Position numbers and translations under genes: made by a program. Under the pieces are notes generated by a model that made no database searches, was not told where the DNA came from, and saw nothing but the letters and a program-made list of their open reading frames with translations. A stretch of 64,000 nucleotides of DNA, taken from Parietichytrium sp. I65-24A (lineage: Eukaryota; Sar; Bigyra; Thraustochytrida; Thraustochytriidae). This document shows, one piece after another, positions 4,517 to 57,472 of this stretch (position 1 is the first letter of the stretch; each line of letters starts with the position of its first letter). The stretch spans positions 124,001-188,000 of the forward strand of contig BLSF01000029.1 in the NCBI GenBank assembly GCA_012862575.1, written 5' to 3'.

Positions 4517-4951
4517 TTGCAAATTTGAAAACCAGTCAAGAGCCTCATGAGCCACGTCAGGCTTACTCGTTGCGTTTCCAGTTCACCTTCACAAGTTCTC
4601 TGTGCATAGGCTCTTGAGTAGCGCCATACCTTCGGCAGGCGTACTAGTACTATGGCTTGCTCATTCGCCTCACCGAGGATTGAATCGAACTGCCTTACGG
4701 CGGCTCTACTCTTCTCCGTAGAATGCGACGTTGCTGTGTACCGTACTTTTGCACGCACGCACGTCCAGATGTGAACAGGATTGAACAGGCTAGAAAGAAC
4801 ACACAGACACAAAGACACACAGACACAGACGCAGACGCAGGATAAGGTAGGGCACAGAGCAGTCGGCAGAGCGGAGGGCATACTAGTAGGTCACGACGTC
4901 CGCGCTAAAAGCGTCCTGGAGGCTGACACAACGGAGCAACGACGGAGAAAG
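4517..4951. other. Intergenic, short CA/CAGA-rich repeat
   Basis: The stretch between the NRAMP relic and the LRR gene contains a degenerate ACACAG/GACACA repeat at about 4798-4841. In the LRR frame the first ATG is at 4952, and the frame upstream opens only after the TGA at 4772. A tRNA-like T-loop string near 4685 was examined and dropped. Nothing else was seen. Confidence 0.6.
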
Positions 4952-7900
4952 ATGGGAAGGTACGAAGAGCGGGAGATTTGTGGCGCCAAGTGGAGGTTCT
5001 GGTGTGAGGCCTCGTTGAGCGAAGGTCTACAAGGTCTACACGCTCTCGACCAAGAGGTGGCCGTGGGGTAAGTGAGGTGGAATCAGCTGGGTGAAAGAGG
5101 CGGCCGAGTTGATTTTCTGACGGTGCTGCTCCTTTCACGCACAGGTTTTTTGATGAATACAGGCGGAAAGATGCAGTGATGACGATCTTCATTGCACTCA
5201 ATGGAAACAAAACGCTTCAACGGTTAGGGTAAGTTCTGCACGTGCCGAGTACCTTGCTGAATTTTCTCGGACTTGGTGGCTGACGATTTCATGTCTTTTG
5301 TGCAACGAAATAGTTTTCGTTTCCATACAATTGGCGCTGGAGGAGCAGCAGCGATCGGTCGCGTGTTGGAGATGAATACTGCGCTGACTTTGTTGGAGTA
5401 CGTGTGACTTTGAGACCGGTTTGGTGAAAAGGTCTAGCGCCTTGCTCCATTTTCGGACTTGGTGGCTGATGACTTCATGTCCTTTGTAATGAAATAGTCT
5501 TTATCAAAATTATATCCGCAACGAAGAAGTATCAACGATCGGTCGCGCGTTGGGGAAGAACACTGCGCTGACTATATTGAAGCACGTGTGACTTTGACAC
5601 CGGTTTGGCGAAAAAGGTTTGTCTCTTGCTGACCTTTCTCGGACTTGGTGGCTGACGACTTCATGTCTCTTTGTAATGAAACAGTCTTCAACATAATTGG
5701 TTTGACGACGAGGGAGCATCAGCGATCGGTCGCGCGTTGGAGAAGAACACTGCGTTGACTACATTGGGGTACGTGTGACTATGACACCTTTTTGGTGAAA
5801 TGGGTTTAGTGCCTTGCCGAACAATTTCGTTCTTGGTGGCTGACGACTTGGTGTCTTTTTGCAATGAAATAGTCTTCACGAAAATCAAATTGGCGATGAA
5901 GGAGCATCAGCGATCGGTCGCGCGTTGGAGAAGAACACTGCGTTGACTACTTTGCTGTACGCGCGATTTTGACTCTGGTTTGGTGAAAAATAAGTGTCTT
6001 GATAAATTTTCTGGGACTTGGTGGCTGACGACTTCATGTCTTTTTGTAATGAAATAGTCTTCATAATAATAAGATTGACGTTGAAGGAGCATCAGCGGTC
6101 GGTCATGCGTTGGAGAAGAATACTGCGCTGACTTCGTTGGAGTACGTACGACTTTGAGACCGGTTTGGTGAAAAGGCTTAGTGCCTTGCCAAATTTTCTT
6201 GGACTTGGTGGCTGATGACTTTATATCTGTTTTCAAATGAAATAGTCTTAGTTGCAATTCCATTGCCGGTGAAGGAGCATCAGCGATCGGTCGCGCGTTG
6301 GAGAAGAACACTGCGCTGACTTCGTTGGAGTACGTGTGACTTTGAGACCGGTCTGGTGAAAAGGGCTTAGTGCCTTGCTAAAACTTTCTCGGACTTGGTG
6401 GCTGATGACCTTATATCTGTTTTCAAATGAAATAGTCTCAGTTGGAATTCCATTGCCGGTGAAGGAGCATCAGCGATCGGTCGCGCGTTGGAGAAGAACA
6501 CTGCGTTGGCTACATTGCTGTGCGTGCGACTTTGACACTGGTTTGGTGAAGAAAAAGTGCCTTGCTAAACTTTCTGGGACTTGGTGGCTGACGACTTCAT
6601 GACTTGTTGTGATGAAATAGTCTTCAATACAACCAGATTGACGCTGAAGGAGCATCAACGATCGGTTGGGCGTTGGAGAAGAATACTGCGCTGACTACGT
6701 TGAAGTACGTGTGACTTTGACACCTATTTGGTAAAAAAGTTAAAACACCTTGCTAGACTTTCTCGGACTTGGTGGCTGACGATTTCGTCTTTTTTTGATG
6801 AAATAGTCTTGGCAACGGATGGTTCCCAGATACGAATCAAATTGGCGGTAAAGGAGCATCAGTGGTCGGTCGGGAGTTGGAGAATAAAAATGCGCCGACT
6901 AGATTGATGTACGTGTGACTTTGACTTCGGTTTGGTGAAAAAGGTTTGTCTCTTGCTGAACTTTCTCGGACTTGGTGGCTGACGACTTCATGACTTTTTG
7001 TAATGAAATAGTCTTCAACGTAACAAGATTGGCGCTAAAGGAGCATCAGCGATCGGTCGCGCGTTGGAGAAGAACACTGCGCTGACTTCGTTGGAGTACG
7101 TGTGACTTTGACACCGGTNNNNNNNNNNNNNNNNNNNNNNNNNNNNNNNNNNNNNNNNNNNNNNNNNNNNNNNNNNNNNNNNNNNNNNNNNNNNNNNNNN
7201 NNNNNNNNNNNNNNNNNNNNNNNNNNNNNNNNNNNNNNNNNNNNNNNNNNNNNNNNNNNNNNNNNNNNNNNNNNNNNNNNNNNNNNNNNNNNNNNNNNNN
7301 NNNNNNNNNNNNNNNNNNNNNNNNNNNNNNNNNNNNNNNNNNNNNNNNNNNNNNNNNNNNNNNNNNNNNNNNNNNNNNNNNNNNNNNNNNNNNNNNNNNN
7401 NNNNNNNNNNNNNNNNNNNNNNNNNNNNNNNNNNNNNNNNNNNNNNNNNNNNNNNNNNNNNNNNNNNNNNNNNNNNNNNNNNNNNNNNNNNNNNNNNNNN
7501 NNNNNNNNNNNNNNNNNNNNNNNNNNNNNNNNNNNNNNNNNNNNNNNNNNNNNNNNNNNNNNNNNNNNNNNNNNNNNNNNNNNNNNNNNNNNNNNNNNNN
7601 NNNNNNNNNNNNNNNNNNNNNNNNNNNNNNNNNNNNNNNNNNNNNNNNNNNNNNNNNNNNNNNNNNNNNNNNNNNNNNNNNNNNNNNNNNNNNNNNNNNN
7701 NNNNNNNNNNNNNNNNNNNNNNNNNNNNNNNNNNNNNNNNNNNNNNNNNNNNNNNNNNNNNNNNNNNNNNNNNNNNNNNNNNNNNNNNNNNNNNNNNNNN
7801 NNNNNNNNNNNNNNNNNNNNNNNNNNNNNNNNNNNNNNNNNNNNNNNNNNNNNNNNNNNNNNNNNNNNNNNNNNNNNNNNNNNNNNNNNNNNNNNNNNNN

Positions 7901-8690
7901 NNNNNNNNNNNNNNNNNNNNNNNNNNNNNNNNNNNNNNNNNNNNNNNNNNNNNNNNNNNNNNNNNNNNNNNNNNNNNNNNNNNNNNNNNNNNNNNNNNNN
8001 NNNNNNNNNNNNNNNNNNNNNNNNNNNNNNNNNNNNNNNNNNNNNNNNNNNNNNNNNNNNNNNNNNNNNNNNNAAGGAGCATCAGCGATCGGTCGCGCGT
8101 TGGAGGGGAATACTGTGCTGACTACATTGGAGTACGTGTGACCCTGCCACCGGTTTGGTGAAAAAGCTGAACTTTCTCGGACTTGGTGGCTGACGACTTC
8201 ATGTCTTTTTGCAATGTTTGCAATGAAATAGTCTTAAATGGAGTGGTATTGGCGATGAAGGAGCATCAGAGATTGTGCGCGGGTTGCAAAAGAATACTGC
8301 GCTAACTTCGTTGAAGTACGTGTGACTTTGACAGCGGGTTGGTGGAAAAGGCTTAGTGCCTTGCTAGACTTTCTCGGACTTTGTGGCTGACAATCTCTTG
8401 TTTTTCTAGTCTTGGGTGGAATTCTATCGGCGATGAAGGAGCGGGAGAGATCGTCCGCGCGTTGGAGAAGAACTCTGCGCTGACTTCGCTGAAGTACGTG
8501 TGACTATGACATCGGTTTGGTGAAAGAGATTAGTCTCTTATTGAACTTTCTCGGACTTCGTGGCTGACGACTTCATGTCCTTTTGTAATGAAACAGTCTT
8601 GATGGTAACGAGATTGGCGCTGAAGGGGAATCAGCGATCCGTCGCGCGTTGGGTAAGAACACTGCGCTGACGACGTTGAAGGACATGTGA
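4952..8690 (+). CDS. Leucine-rich-repeat (RI-type) protein, one repeat per exon
   Basis: Visible exons: 4952-5067, 5145-5228, 5314-5397, 5498-5581, 5685-5768, 5873-5956, 6058-6141, 6246-6329, 6436-6519, 6621-6704, 6807-6908, 7012-7095, then the gap, (about 8048)-8131, 8232-8315, 8410-8493 and 8597-8690 (TGA). Every internal exon is 84 nt (28 codons) except 6807-6908, which carries six extra codons. All introns are phase 2, so units can be added or lost without breaking the frame. Each exon encodes a ribonuclease-inhibitor/NLRC3-type repeat close to NxIGDEGASAIGRALEKN plus TALTTL; the leading Asp/Asn/Gly/Leu codon is split by the intron. Donors are mostly GTACGTGTG and acceptors AAATAG or AACAG. 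All visible exons are open, so the gene looks functional. No signal peptide is seen, so a cytosolic protein is inferred. The ligand is unknown; such LRRs mediate protein binding. The number of repeats hidden in the gap (about four or five) is uncertain. Confidence 0.85.
5229..8596 (+). repeat. Tandem exon+intron repeat array, period about 185-190 bp
   Basis: The unit is an 84-nt LRR exon plus an intron of about 100 nt. Exon starts are spaced 184, 187, 188, 185, 188, 190, 185, 186 and 205 before the gap, and 184, 178 and 187 after it. The introns are nearly as alike as the exons. The first part of each intron has a variant of GTACGTGTGACTTTGACACC and GGTTTGGTGAAAA. The later part carries CTTGGTGGCTGACGACTTCATG and ends in TGAAATAG. 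The CTGAC inside GGCTGACGAC is a plausible branch-point sequence and is kept in almost every copy. Annotators that see only DNA repeats would call this a satellite; the intact coding phase shows otherwise. Confidence 0.85.
7119..8073. other. Assembly gap (N run) inside the LRR array
   Basis: 955 undetermined bases. The gap begins inside an intron, just after the donor block, and ends inside an LRR exon. The spacing between the flanking exons is about 5.5 repeat periods, not a whole number, so the gap length is probably an estimate. Open frames drawn across it are meaningless. Confidence 0.98.
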
Positions 8691-21207: not shown

Positions 21208-23015
<1,808 letters not shown>

Positions 23016-31269: not shown

Positions 31270-34200
31270 TTATATAAAAACATCATATTGATTAGCCTCC
31301 TGCTTTTGCTCCAACGTGCTTGAGGAGTCGTCCCTCGAGACGGCCTGAGAATCCTCACCTCTATTGCCATTTCCCTCCCCGAAAGGTTGGTAGTGGTCCA
31401 AGCTAGCTTCGCCACCGCCGACTTGCGGAGTTGGCACTGCGGGCGGGTCTCCTGGGCCAATTCTAGGGTCCGAAAAGTTCCGAAGCGATACTAAAGTTCT
31501 GTGCACAACGCGCATCAGCGGACGCTCCGAGGGATCGTGCTTTTGACACTGCTCCACAAGCTGTGTGAGAGCCGGGCTCCAACCCATCTCAGCTGGAAGC
31601 TCCAAGCGCTCGCCTCGACAGACTCGAAAAACTACATCCATGGACTCTACGCCGTCCCACGGACGCTTTCCAGCGAGGACCTCAAACAAAGTCACCCCAA
31701 AACTGAACACATCAGACTGTTCCGAGAAGGTCCTAAATCGCATTGCCTCAGGCGCCATCCACTTGATCGGGCCCACATTCTGTGAGAAAAAGGATTGATC
31801 CTCGTTAGTGCTTCTCAGTGCAAAATATTTCGTCGGGAGAAGCCAACCACTTACCTGCTTTGTGTACCCCTTACTCTGGTTCATCTCCTTGATCCGAGCA
31901 AAGCCAAAGTCGCCCACCCGGACTCTGAAATTTTCGTCCACTAGCAGATTTCTGCTCGCGATATCACGATGAATCACATTTTCGCTGTGCAAATGTAATA
32001 TTCCAGCGGCAGCATCTATCATCATCTCAATCATCCGATCGTGCGATATTTTTTGCCTCCGGTACCATGGGCCAGGCACAACAAGCATGTCTTCCACACT
32101 TCCACGTCGCATCAGCTTGGTCACCACACAAGCTCGTGGAGACAGCAGCACGCCAATGAATGGGACAATGTTCTCGTGGTTGTTCACTCGAGACATCATC
32201 GCAGCTTCGTGCTTCAGATCCCATTCTTCACCAGATGGTTTTGCGTCCCCGGAGTCGCCCTGCTTTGTGGTAGACGGCGACCTCATATCTAGTAGCAAGC
32301 CTGAGCCACTCTCATAGCCCAGCGCTTTCGGCGTTTTGGTGTTGTTCGTCGAGCTCAGGGTGGTATCGTCCTTTAAGAACAATTTTTCGCTTCCACGCAA
32401 TTCCTTCACAGCGACCAGCATACCTCTCCACTCAGCAGCACGGACGACGCCAAACGATCCCTCTCCAATGACTTGGCCAAAGGTTAATTCTTGGTGTTGC
32501 AAGACTTGGTGGACTGGTACTCCGACGTAGTCTTCTGTTGACCGCTGCGACAAGGCACTCAGAGTTGCAGTGCTCTCGGATGGTTGCAGATCTCTTGGTG
32601 GCTCAGAACGAGAAAGTTTTCTCTCCAACTTCTCCCGCAAATTAGCCACGCTAAACTCACGATTTGATTGAACCTGAATCCTTGTGGCTTCTGTTCTGTT
32701 TCCTCGATACGCCTTTAAATGAGCACACGTTCGGCCGTCCCGAGGTACCTGATGCTGCATACGCCACTCCACACAGGAGCACTCAAATATATTACCGGAC
32801 CGCTTGATAGTGTACCGCCTCGGCTCGCCGCTAGGATGATACTTGTTTCCGCTCGTAAAGCCTTCGATGCACACACTGTCCCCGTCCAGTAAATCCGGAG
32901 CTAACAGGCCATCCTGCAGCTCTGCGAAAGACACGACTCTCTCCAGAGAGGGCGGAGGGCTGCTAGCTCCCCGCCGGACGATTTTGACCGATGTGGGGTC
33001 AGAAGGGGGACCAGGGGTGGATTCTGAAGTTGAAAGTCTGCGCTGTCCTTGACCTGATGACTCTTGCCCTGGCACCGGCGACGGTGGTGGTGTTTGTGGT
33101 GACGGAGAAGAAAGCGACATGGTGCTCATTCCATTTTCAATTTTCCATTGCTCGACGGCCTGCATAAATGACCGGCGATATCCTTTCTTCATGCCCAACT
33201 CGGTGAGATCTTTTTCATTGATATTGGAAAGCCTTGAAAGCGCATCAAATCCTTCCTCGCATAGCTTCTCGAACCAATCCGCCATATCAAGCTCTGTGAG
33301 CCAAGCCTCCAGACGCCGTTTCTCATATTCTTTGCGAGATTGCGCGGGTTGTTCGTCAGAGTCCTGGATGTTCGCTCCAACCTCTGAAGAATCTTCCTCA
33401 GCGACTGACCCCCCCAAAATGCCGACTAGGTCGTCCAGATGAAAGTCACGAGCAAAGTCTAAAGCAGTTCGGCCCTTTGCGTCTTTGGCCTCGCAGTCCA
33501 CGACATTGTTGTCTAAGATGTACCTCACAACTTCAGTGTTGTTACCAACAACCGCACGGTGCAAAATCGTTTCCTTTGTGTGACGGTGTACAAAGATGCG
33601 GTACCCAGGCTGCTTCAAAAGCCACTCAAAAATTTCTACGCTCCCGCAATTGGCGGCCTCTAGAAGAGCATTGTCCCCTGTCTTATTATCGAAGACGTCC
33701 ACGATACGAAAGTACCTCAAGTTCTTCTTGACGACATTCTTGACGCCATTAAAATTCTTCACCTTTATCGCGTCTGTCAGCTGCTTGTATTTTTGCCGCC
33801 GCCTCCGCTTATGCATTTGCTTTTTCTCCCTCCACTCATCCAATATGGAAGCCACGATATAGTGTCCTTCACAACGTGCCGCCGCGCTCGGAAAACGTTT
33901 GCTGGAGTTTAGTGTGAACGCTGCAAGAGAATCCTCGTCGTGAAGCCTCTCTTGCTTCTCGAAATAGCTCAGAAACCATTGGACCCCCGCCCTCACGCCG
34001 CACCGCGCGGCATCATGTAAACAAGTATCTCCGTTCTTGTCTGCTGTACAAATGAAGTTAAAGGTCGCGAAAGGTTGGGTGACCGCCCACTCTAGAAAGC
34101 TTATTCTGCAGTTGCGCGCCGCAAAATGAAAAATCGTTTCTCCACGATCCGAAAGGACGGTGGGGTCGAGCTGATGTGACTTGATCATCCAAACCAACTC

Positions 34201-34593
34201 TTCCCCGAGATCCAGAAACGCGCAAATGTGTGCTGCAGTTTCCCCATTCTTCCCGCGAGCACGCACGTCACAGCCCGCTCGAGCGAGTTCCCTCGCGGCT
34301 AGCGCCTGTCCGTTTCTAAGCGCAACGTGGAACGCCCTGTCTCCACTTGAAGACTCGAGCTCCAGCCTGCTGCGAGGTCTACTTCGCTTCTTCACACTGC
34401 CAGACCCTCCACCACCGCCGCTCGGGGTGAGTGGTTCTTTGCTATCCAGCTTCTTTTCATGCTCTGCCACAATGTCGAGCAGGCTGACCAATCCCTTCAT
34501 GTCGCCGCATGCTGCGGCAAGGTGCAACGGGCCCCATCCACTCGAGCCTTTTGGGCACCAATTGATTTCTTCCTCGCTTGCGCTGTTGAGCAT
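31270..34593 (-). CDS. Ankyrin-SAM-SWIM-TKL protein kinase, one intron
   Basis: The frame is open for 1107 codons from ATG 34593. An intron at 31780-31854 (75 nt; minus-strand GTAAGTGG...TTTTTCTCACAG) almost surely lies inside it, because removing its 25 codons joins YTKQ to NVGPIKWMAPEA. Spliced length is 1082. Domain order: ankyrin repeats (about 18-390; GWGPLHLAAACG, NGETAAHICA, NGDTCLHDAARCG, KETILHRAVVGN); SAM (about 424-482; WLTELDMADWFEKL, LTELGMKKGYRRSF); Pro/Ser linker; SWIM zinc finger (about 600-632; CSCVEWRMQHQ, then RTCAHLKAYRG); TKL kinase (about 700-1030). The kinase has GEGSFGVV, AVKEL, HRDIASRNLL, GDFGFARI and WMAPEA, so all catalytic residues are present. There is an insert between the ATP-lysine strand and helix C. 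A signalling kinase with protein-binding N-terminus is inferred. Confidence 0.88.
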   Translation of the reverse strand: MLNSASEEEINWCPKGSSGWGPLHLAAACGDMKGLVSLLDIVAEHEKKLDSKEPLTPSGGGGGSGSVKKRSRPRSRLELESSSGDRAFHVALRNGQALAARELARAGCDVRARGKNGETAAHICAFLDLGEELVWMIKSHQLDPTVLSDRGETIFHFAARNCRISFLEWAVTQPFATFNFICTADKNGDTCLHDAARCGVRAGVQWFLSYFEKQERLHDEDSLAAFTLNSSKRFPSAAARCEGHYIVASILDEWREKKQMHKRRRRQKYKQLTDAIKVKNFNGVKNVVKKNLRYFRIVDVFDNKTGDNALLEAANCGSVEIFEWLLKQPGYRIFVHRHTKETILHRAVVGNNTEVVRYILDNNVVDCEAKDAKGRTALDFARDFHLDDLVGILGGSVAEEDSSEVGANIQDSDEQPAQSRKEYEKRRLEAWLTELDMADWFEKLCEEGFDALSRLSNINEKDLTELGMKKGYRRSFMQAVEQWKIENGMSTMSLSSPSPQTPPPSPVPGQESSGQGQRRLSTSESTPGPPSDPTSVKIVRRGASSPPPSLERVVSFAELQDGLLAPDLLDGDSVCIEGFTSGNKYHPSGEPRRYTIKRSGNIFECSCVEWRMQHQVPRDGRTCAHLKAYRGNRTEATRIQVQSNREFSVANLREKLERKLSRSEPPRDLQPSESTATLSALSQRSTEDYVGVPVHQVLQHQELTFGQVIGEGSFGVVRAAEWRGMLVAVKELRGSEKLFLKDDTTLSSTNNTKTPKALGYESGSGLLLDMRSPSTTKQGDSGDAKPSGEEWDLKHEAAMMSRVNNHENIVPFIGVLLSPRACVVTKLMRRGSVEDMLVVPGPWYRRQKISHDRMIEMMIDAAAGILHLHSENVIHRDIASRNLLVDENFRVRVGDFGFARIKEMNQSKGYTKQVSGWLLPTKYFALRSTNEDQSFFSQNVGPIKWMAPEAMRFRTFSEQSDVFSFGVTLFEVLAGKRPWDGVESMDVVFRVCRGERLELPAEMGWSPALTQLVEQCQKHDPSERPLMRVVHRTLVSLRNFSDPRIGPGDPPAVPTPQVGGGEASLDHYQPFGEGNGNRGEDSQAVSRDDSSSTLEQKQEANQYDVFI

Positions 34594-49616: not shown

Positions 49617-50047
49617 GCGCGGTGCGGCGCTCCCTCTCCTGGAACCCTGAAACCTAAACCCTGAAACCTTAAACCCCTGAAACCTAAACTCTAAAACTCT
49701 AAAATCTGAAACCTAGGCGCCGCAGTCTGGTCCTTACTTCCTCTATTCTTTCCTTCCTTCCCTCACGTCCGTCGATGTGCTCGTCGGAAGTGAGCGATCG
49801 ATCGATGGATGTATGGATGTATGGATGGATGTATGGATGGATCACTCCGCACAATCAAGATGTGGTCAATGCAAGCAAGTGGAGCAAAGCAAGTGGAGCA
49901 AAGCAAGTGAAGCAAGTGAAGGGATCAATGAAATGAAACTCCGGTGTCAAAATCCGTTCCGCAAGCAATCGGCCTGCGCTCGTGGTGTTCGTCTTGAGTG
50001 ACTGCCCGCGCTCTCCGTGCCACCACTACACGAACGCGCTTTGCCTT

Positions 50048-54025: not shown

Positions 54026-54143
54026 AAGCTCGTTCACATTTCAGGTATAGCACCGGAACTCATCCGAACTCCGAAGTTAAGCCCTGACAAGCTAGGTTAG
54101 TACTACCGTAGGGGACTAGGTGGGAAGCCCTAGTGACGAGCTT
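54026..54143 (+). rRNA. 5S ribosomal RNA, copy 1
   Basis: 118 nt. Terminal helix AAGCTCGTTCAC pairs with GTGACGAGCTT. The universally conserved segment CATCCGAACTCCGAAGTTAAG and the box-C region GGTTAGTACTACCG are present. A run of T directly follows the helix and should end Pol III transcription. This copy has T in GGTTAG. Confidence 0.95.
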
Positions 54144-54653
54144 TTTTATCTCTTTTTTTGACAAAAATGAAAGAAACACACAGTGCAAACACACTCACTT
54201 ATTTTGCCTCTTTCGCATTCCGTCCATTACTTCTATCGATCAAAAATGTCAAAGATGTCAAAAATGTCAAAGAGGTTCCTGAGGAAGTTCAAAAACCGAT
54301 GTGAACTGTGGTGGCAATGCTCACTCGCTTCTATTAGCGCCAGAGTACGGCTGGAATAGTCTTTACCGTGAGGGTAGTGGCCGTGACAAAATGATCTCCA
54401 TCGCTCTGTCGATCAACGTAGCGAGCGGGAAACAATCAAACGACAGGCTCATGCTCACAGACCTTTCGGTTCCCTCTGAGTTCTGAAGTGGGAGCATTGA
54501 GCGTGTAATGTATTTGTTTATGGTATCGAAAAATGCTTCATAGAACCAGAGAAGAAAACTGTGGAATACACGAGCACAGGACAAGCGAAACATCGCTGCA
54601 GTCGGTTGTATATTTACTCTTTGAGGAGACCACCTACTGTGCTAATAAGCTCT

Positions 54654-54771
54654 AAGCTCGTTCACATTTCAGGTATAGCACCGGAACTCATCCGAACTCC
54701 GAAGTTAAGCCCTGACAAGCTAGGTCAGTACTACCGTAGGGGACTAGGTGGGAAGCCCTAGTGACGAGCTT
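54654..54771 (+). rRNA. 5S ribosomal RNA, copy 2
   Basis: Same structure and 118-nt length as the other copies. It has the GGTCAG variant of the box-C region. Followed by a T-run terminator. Confidence 0.95.
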
Positions 54772-55314
54772 TTTTTATCTCTCTTTTTGACAAAAATGTT
54801 CATGAAAAAATGAAAGAAACACACAGTGCAAACACACTCACTTATTTTGCCTCTTTCGCATTCCGTCCATTACTTCTATCGATCAAAAATGTCAAAGATG
54901 TCAAAAATGTCAAAAATGTCAAAGAGGTTCCCGAGGAAGTTCAAAAACCAATGTGAACTGGGGTGGCAATTGTGACAATGCCCACTCGCTTCTATTAGCG
55001 CCAGAGTACGGCTGGAATAGTCTTTACCGTGAGGGTAGTTACGGTAACAAAATGATCTCCATCGCTCTGTCGATCAACGTAGCGACCGAGAAACAATCAC
55101 ACGACACGCATATGCTCACAGACCTTTCGGTTCTCTCTGAGTTCTGAAGTGGGAGCATTGAGCGTGTAATGTATTTGTTTATGGTATCGAAAAATGCTTC
55201 ATAGAACCAGAGAAGAAAACTGTGGAATACACGAGCACAGGACAAGCGAAACATCGCTGCAGTCGGTTGTATATTTACTCTTTGAGGAGACCACCTACTG
55301 TGCTAATAAGCTCT

Positions 55315-55432
55315 AAGCTCGTTCACATTTCAGGTATAGCACCGGAACTCATCCGAACTCCGAAGTTAAGCCCTGACAAGCTAGGTCAGTACTACCGTAG
55401 GGGACTAGGTGGGAAGCCCTAGTGACGAGCTT
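55315..55432 (+). rRNA. 5S ribosomal RNA, copy 3
   Basis: 118 nt, GGTCAG variant, T-run terminator. Its upstream block carries the most substitutions of the six (for example GTTACGGTAAC and ACGACACGCATATGC). Confidence 0.95.
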
Positions 55433-55981
55433 TTTTTATCTCTCTTTTTGACAAAAATGTTCATGAAAAAATGAAAGAAACACACAGTGCAAACACACTC
55501 ACTTATTTTGCCTCTTTCGCATTCCGTCCATTACTTCTATCGATCAAAAATGTCAAAGATGTCAAAAATGTCAAAAATGTCAAAGAGGTTCCCGAGGAAG
55601 TTCAAAAACCAATGTGAACTGGGGTGGCAATTGTGACAATGCCCACTCGCTTCTATTAGCGCCAGAGTACGGCTGGAATAGTCTTTACCGTGAGGGTAGT
55701 GGCTGTGACAAAATGATCTCCATCGCTCTGTCGATCAACGTAGCGAGCGGGAAACAATCAAACGACAGGCTCATGCTCACAGACCTTTCGGTTCCCTCTG
55801 AGTTCTGAAGTGGGAGCATTGAGTGTGTAATGTATTTGTTTCTGGTGTCGAAAAATGCTTCATAGAACCAGAGAACTTCAAGAAAACTGTGGAATACACG
55901 AGCACAGGACAAGCGAAACATCGCTGCAGTCGGTTGTATATTTACTCTTTGAGAAGACCATCTACTGTGCTAATAAGCTCT

Positions 55982-56099
55982 AAGCTCGTTCACATTTCAG
56001 GTATAGCACCGGAACTCATCCGAACTCCGAAGTTAAGCCCTGACAAGCTAGGTTAGTACTACCGTAGGGGACTAGGTGGGAAGCCCTAGTGACGAGCTT
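55982..56099 (+). rRNA. 5S ribosomal RNA, copy 4
   Basis: 118 nt, GGTTAG variant like copy 1. Its flanks on both sides also match those of copy 1. Confidence 0.95.
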
Positions 56100-56615
56100 T
56101 TTTATCTCTTTTTTTGACAAAAATGAAAGAAACACACAGTGCAAACACACTCACTTATTTTGCCTCTTTCGCATTCCGTCCATTACTTCTATCGATCAAA
56201 AATGTCAAAGATGTCAAAAATGTCAAAGAGGTTCCTGAGGAAGTTCAAAAACCGATGTGAACTGTGGTGGCAATGCTCACTCGCTTCTATTAGCGCCAGA
56301 GTACGGCTGGAATAGTCTTTACCGTGAGGGTAGTGGCCGTGACAAAATGATCTCCATCGCTCTGTCGATCAACGTAGCGAGCGGGAAACAATCAAACGAC
56401 AGGCTCATGCTCACAGACCTTTCGGTTCCCTCTGAGTTCTGAAGTGGGAGCATTGAGCGTGTAACGTATTTGTTTCTGGTGTCGAAAAATGCTTCATAGA
56501 ACCAGAGAACTTCAAGAAAACTGTGGAATACACGAGCACAGGACAAGCGAAACATCGCTGCAGTCGGTTGTATATTTACTCTTTAAGAAGACCACCTACT
56601 GTGCTAATAAGCTCT

Positions 56616-56733
56616 AAGCTCGTTCATATTTCAGGTATAGCACCGGAACTCATCCGAACTCCGAAGTTAAGCCCTGACAAGCTAGGTTAGTACTACCGTA
56701 GGGGACTAGGTGGGAAGCCCTAGTGACGAGCTT
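56616..56733 (+). rRNA. 5S ribosomal RNA, copy 5
   Basis: 118 nt, GGTTAG variant, plus a private C-to-T change (TTCATATTTCAGG) that replaces a C in the terminal-helix side. Its pairing partner is unchanged, so a G-U pair results. Confidence 0.93.
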
Positions 56734-57253
56734 TTTTATCTCTCTTTTTTTTGACAAATGAAAAAATGAAAGCAAACATACTCATTTATTTTGCCTCTTT
56801 CGCATTCCGTCCACTACTTTTATCGATCAAAAATGTCAAAGATGTCAAAAATGTCAAAGAGGTTCATGAGAAGTTCAAAAACCGATGTGAACTGGGAGGC
56901 AATTGTGACAATGCCCACTCGCTTCTATTAGCGCCAGAGTACGGCTGGAATAGTCTTTACCGTGAGGGTAGTGGCTGTGACAAAATGATCTCCATCGCTC
57001 TGTCGATCAACGTAGCGAGCGGGAAACAATCAAACGACAGGCTCATGCTCACAGACCTTTCGGTTCCCTCTGAGTTCTGAAGTGGGAGCATTGAGTGTGT
57101 AATGTATTTGTTTATGGTATCGAAAAATGCTTCATAGAACCAGAGAACTTCAAGAAAACTGTGGAATACACGAGCACAGGACAAGCGAAACATCGCTGCA
57201 GTCGGTTGTATATTTACTCTTTGAGAAGACCACCTACTGTGCTAATAAGCTCT

Positions 57254-57371
57254 AAGCTCGTTCACATTTCAGGTATAGCACCGGAACTCATCCGAACTCC
57301 GAAGTTAAGCCCTGACAAGCTAGGTCAGTACTACCGTAGGGGACTAGGTGGGAAGCCCTAGTGACGAGCTT
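57254..57371 (+). rRNA. 5S ribosomal RNA, copy 6
   Basis: 118 nt, GGTCAG variant. The terminator is shorter (TTTTT then ATC), and the following spacer is cut short and diverges after about 57472, marking the array edge. Confidence 0.94.
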
Positions 57372-57472
57372 TTTATCTCCCTTTTTTATTTATATCCCTT
57401 GTTTTTGACATTTTTTTTGACAAATGAAAAAATGAAAGCAACATACTTTGTTTTGCCTCGTTCCCACTCCGT

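Follow-up and report, generated by a model that had tools for sequence, protein, structure and literature searches.

Brown-algal ROCO genes encode leucine-rich repeats (LRRs) of 23-24 residues on 72-bp phase-2 exons, which are shuffled and under positive selection, and LRR-ROC-COR alone is reported for brown algae in the part of the paper used here (PMC11378527). In Tetrahymena, thousands of genes carry LRR exons of exactly 90 bp and phase 2, and this uniformity was thought to be unique in the section cited (PMC6564038). In human NLRP3, each 171-bp exon holds two LRRs, with the exon border fixed in the strand (PMC6642158, relevant section). Fungal NLRs (het-d/het-e) shuffle highly conserved WD, ANK or TPR repeats with few selected concave positions; the portion of the paper referred to here reports them without LRRs (PMC4986451). 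Here we describe an LRR gene of the thraustochytrid Parietichytrium sp. I65-24A that can be compared with these systems. It is located on the plus strand at positions 4952-8690 of a 64,000 nt stretch of contig BLSF01000029.1 (C29:124001-188000), called the window throughout, and the source assembly is a 42.5-Mb genome in 172 contigs. We favour, with moderate confidence, the reading that this locus belongs, as an LRR-only gene, to a large family of putative cytoplasmic recognition receptors, probably acting in defence or nonself recognition.

Reconstruction of the locus gave sixteen visible exons, as a first-pass annotation of the window had proposed: a first exon of 116 nt, 13 complete internal exons, one exon cut by an assembly gap and one terminal exon (Table 1). 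The annotation had given all exons as 84 nt. This is true for 12 of the 13 complete internal exons; the remaining one (6807-6908) has 102 nt (+18). It had also placed every border in phase 2 and assigned one 28-residue RI-type LRR to nearly every exon, and the reconstruction agrees: every intron of the gene whose phase could be assigned is in phase 2, and the spliced frame is open and reads as RI-type LRRs with the 28-residue unit of that type. One example is LHENQIGDEGASAIGRALEKNTALTTL plus the split codon, with the pattern LxxLxLxxNxIGxxG. The introns are 77 to 106 nt long, one donor (after 5581) is GC, and reading past the donor leads to a TGA within a few codons in most units (judged by eye). 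The last unit has GGACAT at the donor position; its frame runs on to LKDM and a TGA stop, which ends the gene. The window units are tandem copies and hence not independent of one another; TRF reports them as copies of a ~188-bp repeat, introns included. At this period, the 955-N gap within the array would offer space for about five further units. Rfam and ARAGORN gave no match at the locus.

The gene had been presented as a single gene that stands out. Its structure is indeed striking, but it is one of dozens of family loci. A 401-base query (about two units) gave 199 matches in the same genome, and by our count at least 37 array clusters are among the matches listed. This count is a lower bound, as 40 of 112 first-look candidates were scored. 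Altogether, 24 further loci were taken (L009-L032, some cut by contig ends), making 25 with the window; of L033-L035 only the effector sides were obtained, and these three belong to the 12 of 37 clusters without full arrays fetched. Units were found with a profile derived from those of the window, and a unit was called strong at E below 1e-10. The splice picker accepted GT or GC donors only and put a small penalty on lengths that are not a multiple of 3. It assigned splice sites to 268 units over the 25 loci; 225 of these have 84 nt, and GCACGT was chosen as donor in seven. Among the strong units, 243 of 246 could be measured, 217 of which have 84 nt and 235 a length that is a multiple of 3. 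The 197 introns (75-132 nt) fall into the three length classes modulo 3 (0/1/2) as 60/75/62. The regularity of the exons goes beyond chance, because they keep 84 nt and the frame while the introns show no frame preference. These figures and the symmetry of the exons bear out the earlier suggestion that units can be added or lost in frame.

Within the introns, where mean diversity is 0.234, the first three bases of the donor (0.01-0.10) and the AG (0.01-0.02) are near-invariant, and a CTGAC element with a diversity of 0.01-0.08 is suited to be the branch site. Such conserved splice signals, together with frame-keeping exon lengths, a framework dN/dS of 0.38 (see below) and N-terminal and effector exons common to several loci, are not expected of a non-genic tandem satellite that happens to resemble coding sequence. 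The ~188-bp TRF array does take in the introns, as a satellite would; we consider this explanation to have next to no probability.

The N-terminal module precedes the arrays in 18 of the 25 loci, nine of which seeded the profile. A query with the 5′ end of the window gene (4850-5240) gave 34 genome matches including itself; the others are 67-80% identical and many extend upstream of the ATG. By our count, 15 of the 34 lie outside array clusters. Eight of these 15 are within ~600 bases of the first base of their contig and read toward that end, these contigs (C54, C19, C22, C53, C110, C41, C4 and C58) starting in or beside the module; therefore the starts of arrays appear to be places where the assembly breaks. 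Two modules each are present in L014, L017 and L028, so that some loci represent two genes. In nine loci extracted with a script that demanded phase 2, exon 1 has 83, 101, 107 or 116 nt and exon 2 has 81 or 84 nt; these length differences among paralogues keep the frame.

To see where the units differ, amino-acid entropy was determined for 216 units from the 25 loci. It is highest at positions 3, 2, 5, 26 and 28 (3.88 to 2.50 bits), next at position 8 (2.17 bits) and below 1 bit at most remaining positions; codon 28 is the split codon. In LRR proteins, the x residues of the LxxLxLxxN strand form the concave, ligand-facing side. Here, these strand residues and the next residue correspond to positions 25, 26, 28, 2, 3 and 5, of which position 25 is conserved. 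All five top-entropy positions fall within this set of six out of 28 (chance 6e-5, with the set written down after the entropies were seen). Residue triplets at positions 2, 3 and 5 are of 179 different kinds in the 216 units, and all 11 window units used differ from each other (11/11). Variation is concentrated on the face predicted to bind, in line with the earlier claim of a changeable binding surface.

The replacement rate (dN) at codons 2, 3, 5 and 26 is 5.4 times the silent rate (dS) of the framework (locus bootstrap 4.5-6.7). For the framework itself dN/dS is 0.38 (bootstrap 0.32-0.47), which across all units indicates purifying selection on its codons. As the yardstick we took framework silent sites and introns; in the face codons, path counting overstates the silent rate because of multiple changes. 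The two yardsticks agree in random pairs (0.218 and 0.228). We also compared 12 position-matched unit pairs from the duplicated blocks of L017, L018 and L028, the pairing being independent of similarity. These pairs show 6.5% differences in the face, 2.2% in the intron and 1.8% in the framework (P = 0.005 for face vs intron).

Variation of the face codons might be produced by targeted hypermutation instead of selection. Diversity per site is 0.46-0.74 at face codons, compared with mostly <0.3 in the framework and the intron mean of 0.234, and when all unit pairs are taken, silent differences occur in 46% of face codons with a shared amino acid vs 17% for the framework. The latter excess may also reflect convergence on the same residue. 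Among 32 close pairs, 50 face codons code for an unchanged amino acid and 3 of them show a silent difference, like framework codons (39 of 621); this test is weaker if changes came in blocks. Because face codons of close pairs differ silently at a framework-like rate, local hypermutation is less likely, and we regard it as improbable.

Fourteen frames beside arrays were scanned with Pfam at curated cut-offs. Roc, COR-A and TIR were found above the cut-offs in open frames beside the arrays of L012, L014 and L033. In L034, ROC-COR-TIR is spread over two frames, and in L029 a Roc domain above the cut-off is cut by the end of the fetched piece; here a genome search shows a ROC-COR-TIR match at C12:489647-491908. 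A protein kinase domain adjoins the arrays of L015, L019, L022 and L025, and in L015, L019 and L025 a charged, coil-like stretch lies ahead of it (by eye). The kinase motif is HCD in place of the usual HRD, and in none of the four kinases did a pattern search reveal DFG where it would be expected; catalytic activity of this effector is uncertain. Among immune receptors, some kinases lack the HRD arginine. L035, homologous to L025, gave no Pfam match in its frame; two overlapping frames at this locus contain Ns. The frames of L017 and L009 contain no Pfam domain, and the L027 frame has an FKBP-type domain, perhaps part of a neighbouring gene. NACHT or NB-ARC domains were found in none of the 14 frames.

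The same N-terminal module occurs with both effector types, with ROC in L014 and L029 and with the kinase in L015 and L025. In L029 (AG, then TCTTTCAGG), L012, L025 and L019, the last unit is followed after 97-105 nt by an acceptor from which the strand motif continues, in phase 2, into the effector frame, and a similar phase-2 acceptor was seen by eye in L035. The acceptor script considered phase-2 sites only and returned several per locus, among which the choice was made by context. Entry from the array into the effector exons in phase 2 is plausible; if it is right, one joining rule would apply to the N-terminus, the repeats and both kinds of effector.

The best relative of the ROC-COR-TIR query is a metagenome protein with 54% identity, followed by a protein of Mucochytrium quahogii (43%). 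Further relatives are many proteins of Hondaea fermentalgiana (mostly 35-44%) and proteins of Aplanochytrium stocchinoi (31-35%). Mucochytrium, Hondaea and Aplanochytrium are labyrinthulomycetes. Several of the Hondaea relatives pair WD40 repeats with ROC-COR-TIR (e.g., P0006 and P0009), and two pair LRRs with it. Judged from these predicted proteins, one ROC-COR-TIR chassis takes different sensor repeats in labyrinthulomycetes. Four Hondaea proteins resemble the family in having homologous ROC-COR-TIR (29-43% identity) with sensor repeats in front; as a difference, an array of the window consensus repeat was not seen by eye in P0006, P0009, P0046 or P0056. For the L025 kinase effector frame, no homologue was found at E <= 1e-20 among 7989 candidates scored.

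Two further observations concern the effector modules. L012 (C35:276903-280813) has two tandem ROC-COR-TIR matches, the second being partial and 96% alike; the first copy has a frame change near the P-loop. Homology to L025 reveals more kinase-type effector modules at C29:86283-88808 and C88:100447-122080 (five match rows on C88).

The first-pass annotation had proposed that the array expands. The number of strong units per locus ranges from 3 to 25, and blocks are duplicated: in L017 and L028 the block consists of the N-terminal module and five units, L018 repeats a two-unit block and L016 has identical neighbouring units. For 41% of 180 units, the nearest intron relative comes from their own locus (5% by shuffling); therefore duplication is often local. 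For the remaining units it lies in another locus, which may be due to exchange or to duplication of whole loci, and the pattern of intron neighbours suggests exchange between genes of the family. Rank correlations between flanking-intron distance and face distance are near zero (0.005 to 0.18), because the face codons are nearly saturated, and they neither prove nor exclude recombination. In a strict subset, in which downstream introns differ by <3% and upstream introns by >=15%, the right-hand face codons are identical in 4 of 4 pairs and the left-hand ones in 0 of 4 (backgrounds 3.7% and 0.6%, respectively). The strict mirror subset of three pairs has one right-hand and one left-hand identity and does not show the pattern. 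With a limit of 6%, the right- and left-hand counts are 6 and 1 of 20 pairs (mirror 2 and 3 of 18), and with a limit of 10% they are 10 and 2 of 105, the mirror giving 6 and 4 of 111. This suggests breakpoints inside the exons, within the constant framework; the pairs share loci.

We are close to certain of the structure and modularity of this family. That its members are recognition receptors is quite probable, and for an immune or nonself role the chances appear about even. In the model we propose, each 84-nt phase-2 exon would provide one RI-type LRR made of a constant framework and five hypervariable concave-face residues. N-terminal, repeat and effector exons appear to have a common phase-2 joining rule, and because all exon kinds appear to obey it, the frame would survive the gain, loss and re-pairing of repeats. 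Repeats would be added, dropped and re-paired in frame by unequal crossing-over and gene conversion, in the introns as well as in the framework, and diversifying selection would retain new face residues. In full members, the array would be joined to a GTPase of the ROC-COR-TIR type or to an atypical kinase, and ligand binding presumably gates the TIR/GTPase or kinase output. More tentatively, a unicellular combinatorial system can be envisaged, in which a common N-terminal exon, any number of single-LRR cassettes with five strongly varying face residues, and interchangeable ROC-COR-TIR or kinase exons are combined under one phase-2 rule, with framework crossovers re-pairing the halves of the strand and perhaps alternative splicing enlarging the repertoire of an individual.

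Several points weigh against a receptor family of this kind. The splice junctions are predictions from genomic sequence only; 8 of the 243 measured strong units have a length not divisible by 3, one of the 217 units of 84 nt has an internal stop, and some matches to the kinase module contain stops (e.g., one TGA at C30, two TAG at C11). In the 12 positional pairs, the framework changes comprise 11 replacement and 3 silent codons, and because of this ratio purifying selection is not visible at short scale. The excess of silent differences at face codons over all unit pairs, described above, belongs here as well. An immune role is suggested by the domain company of the arrays and by nothing else.

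A search of protein databases with the spliced LRRs gave only general RI-type LRRs and no close spliced relative, which also weighs on this side: among the 120 of 172 matches listed, the top match has 33% identity, and the highest identity is 54% over 35% of the query. The best PDB matches by sequence include RNH1 and the LRRs of NLRs, and several are flagellar, e.g., DRC5 and LRRC34; RI-type LRRs are thus also axonemal. These relatives would suit an ordinary structural RI-type LRR gene, for example an axonemal one, that underwent tandem repeat expansion and has no recognition role. Such a gene does not predict a face dN five times the neutral rate over 25 loci, or ROC-COR-TIR and kinase outputs, and we consider it slightly less probable still than hypermutation.

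The window copy itself is without an effector and has lost its last donor (GGACAT, with the stop four codons on), and at E 1e-5 its 2.2 kb of downstream sequence has no match in any of the other 24 loci. It could be a decaying gene, or an LRR-only reservoir that no longer has an effector and whose remaining role, if any, is to supply units to other loci. In brown algae, LRR-only shuffling genes have been called a possible reservoir in the part of the study considered here (PMC11378527). For the window copy, on the other hand, the visible frame is fully open and all complete units expected to have usable splice sites do have them. LRR-only proteins are also able to act alone. Decay or a reservoir role is a possibility to be taken seriously, although we think it somewhat doubtful, and we keep to the LRR-only member of a receptor family as the preferred reading.

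Among the described systems, the brown-algal ROCO genes show a good likeness: one LRR per phase-2 exon, exon shuffling, positive selection on the LRRs and LRR-only relatives (PMC11378527, parts used here). Differences from that description are the 84-nt exon with a 28-residue RI-type LRR, compared with 72 bp and 23-24 residues, the ROC-COR-TIR and kinase effectors, and the N-terminal module found across effector types. ROC-COR after the LRRs, and Roc and COR in tandem, are not present in the window gene; Roc and COR-A are found in the paralogues L012, L014, L033 and L034 (two frames), and Roc in L029. The earlier idea of a counterpart of exon-shuffled LRR genes is strengthened by ROC-COR in these paralogues. 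The Tetrahymena genes, as described in the section cited, are alike in their tandem single-length exons, extreme phase-2 bias and young, expanding arrays; they are set apart by description through their unit of 90 bp and 30 residues compared with 84 nt here (PMC6564038). With vertebrate NLRs the family has in common RI-type LRRs, an exon border fixed in the beta-strand and a frame that is kept (PMC6642158, relevant section). NLRP3 differs in having NACHT, which, like NB-ARC, was found in none of the 14 frames scanned here.

Fungal NLRs are similar in repeat shuffling within and between genes, few selected face positions and combinatorial effectors, and differ in having a NOD where the Parietichytrium family has intron-split LRR exons and ROC-COR or a kinase (PMC4986451, portion cited). 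From this likeness, allorecognition rather than defence may be considered: the arrays would discriminate self from nonself when cells or ectoplasmic nets make contact, like the fungal het NLRs. The evolutionary signature, with a hypervariable face and a constant framework, matches the fungal repeats of high internal conservation, which are shuffled and have few concave positions under positive selection in the part of the study consulted (PMC4986451). The fungal genes have a NOD, however, which was seen in none of the 14 array-adjoining frames, and are reported there without LRRs; we think allorecognition rather unlikely. The family would work like high-internal-conservation repeat receptors and, with NOD absent from the frames scanned, would not be a member of them. 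By its exon length, the lack of NACHT/NB-ARC in these frames and its use of LRRs instead of WD/ANK/TPR repeats, it fits no single one of these definitions.

An account of such genes in labyrinthulomycetes did not come up in our searches of open-licence papers. The family would be a third case of single-length phase-2 tandem LRR exons, after brown algae and Tetrahymena and with another exon length. Its architecture is combined with TIR, which is a frequent effector domain in immune proteins, and its diversity is concentrated on the binding face. Because several lineages use phase-2 LRR cassette exons, one can now test whether evolvable receptors have repeatedly arisen by this route outside animals and plants. 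The size of the system (dozens of loci) suits long-read population work, and thraustochytrid relatives are cultured.

Table 1. Features of the LRR gene in the window (positions within the 64,000 nt stretch).
Feature	Position	Strand	Remarks
5′ flank	4850..4951	+	probable promoter/5′ untranslated region, common to paralogues; aligned in 11 loci, window included
Exon 1	4952..5067	+	N-terminal module MGRYEEREICGAKWRFWCEASLSEGLQGLHALDQEVAV, 116 nt, donor GTAAGT, phase 2
Exon 2	5145..5228	+	84 nt, degenerate N-terminal capping LRR
LRR unit 1	5314..5397	+	84 nt
LRR unit 2	5498..5581	+	84 nt, GC donor
LRR unit 3	5685..5768	+	84 nt
LRR unit 4	5873..5956	+	84 nt
LRR unit 5	6058..6141	+	84 nt
LRR unit 6	6246..6329	+	84 nt
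LRR unit 7	6436..6519	+	84 nt
LRR unit 8	6621..6704	+	84 nt
LRR unit 9	6807..6908	+	102 nt (+18, in frame)
LRR unit 10	7012..7095	+	84 nt
Assembly gap	7119..8073		955 N, within array
Gap-cut LRR unit	8074..8131	+	
LRR unit	8232..8315	+	84 nt
LRR unit	8410..8493	+	84 nt
Terminal exon	8597..8690	+	LRR unit, donor position GGACAT, ends LKDM-TGA

Other features of the window were also recorded. A frame of 1107 amino acids on the minus strand (31270-34593) contains ankyrin repeats, a SAM domain and a kinase domain (best match PK_Tyr_Ser-Thr). Six tandem 5S rRNA genes, 628-667 bases apart, are located on the plus strand at 54026-57372, and short TCAAAAATG repeats lie behind the first five of them. 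Interstitial telomere-like repeats of the AACCCTGAAACCTA and AACCCTAAAACCCTA kinds are present at 49643-49715. The region 22466-22964 has a 444-base (TC)n run that is 99% pure, and its end is overlapped by a perfect two-copy 32-base repeat.

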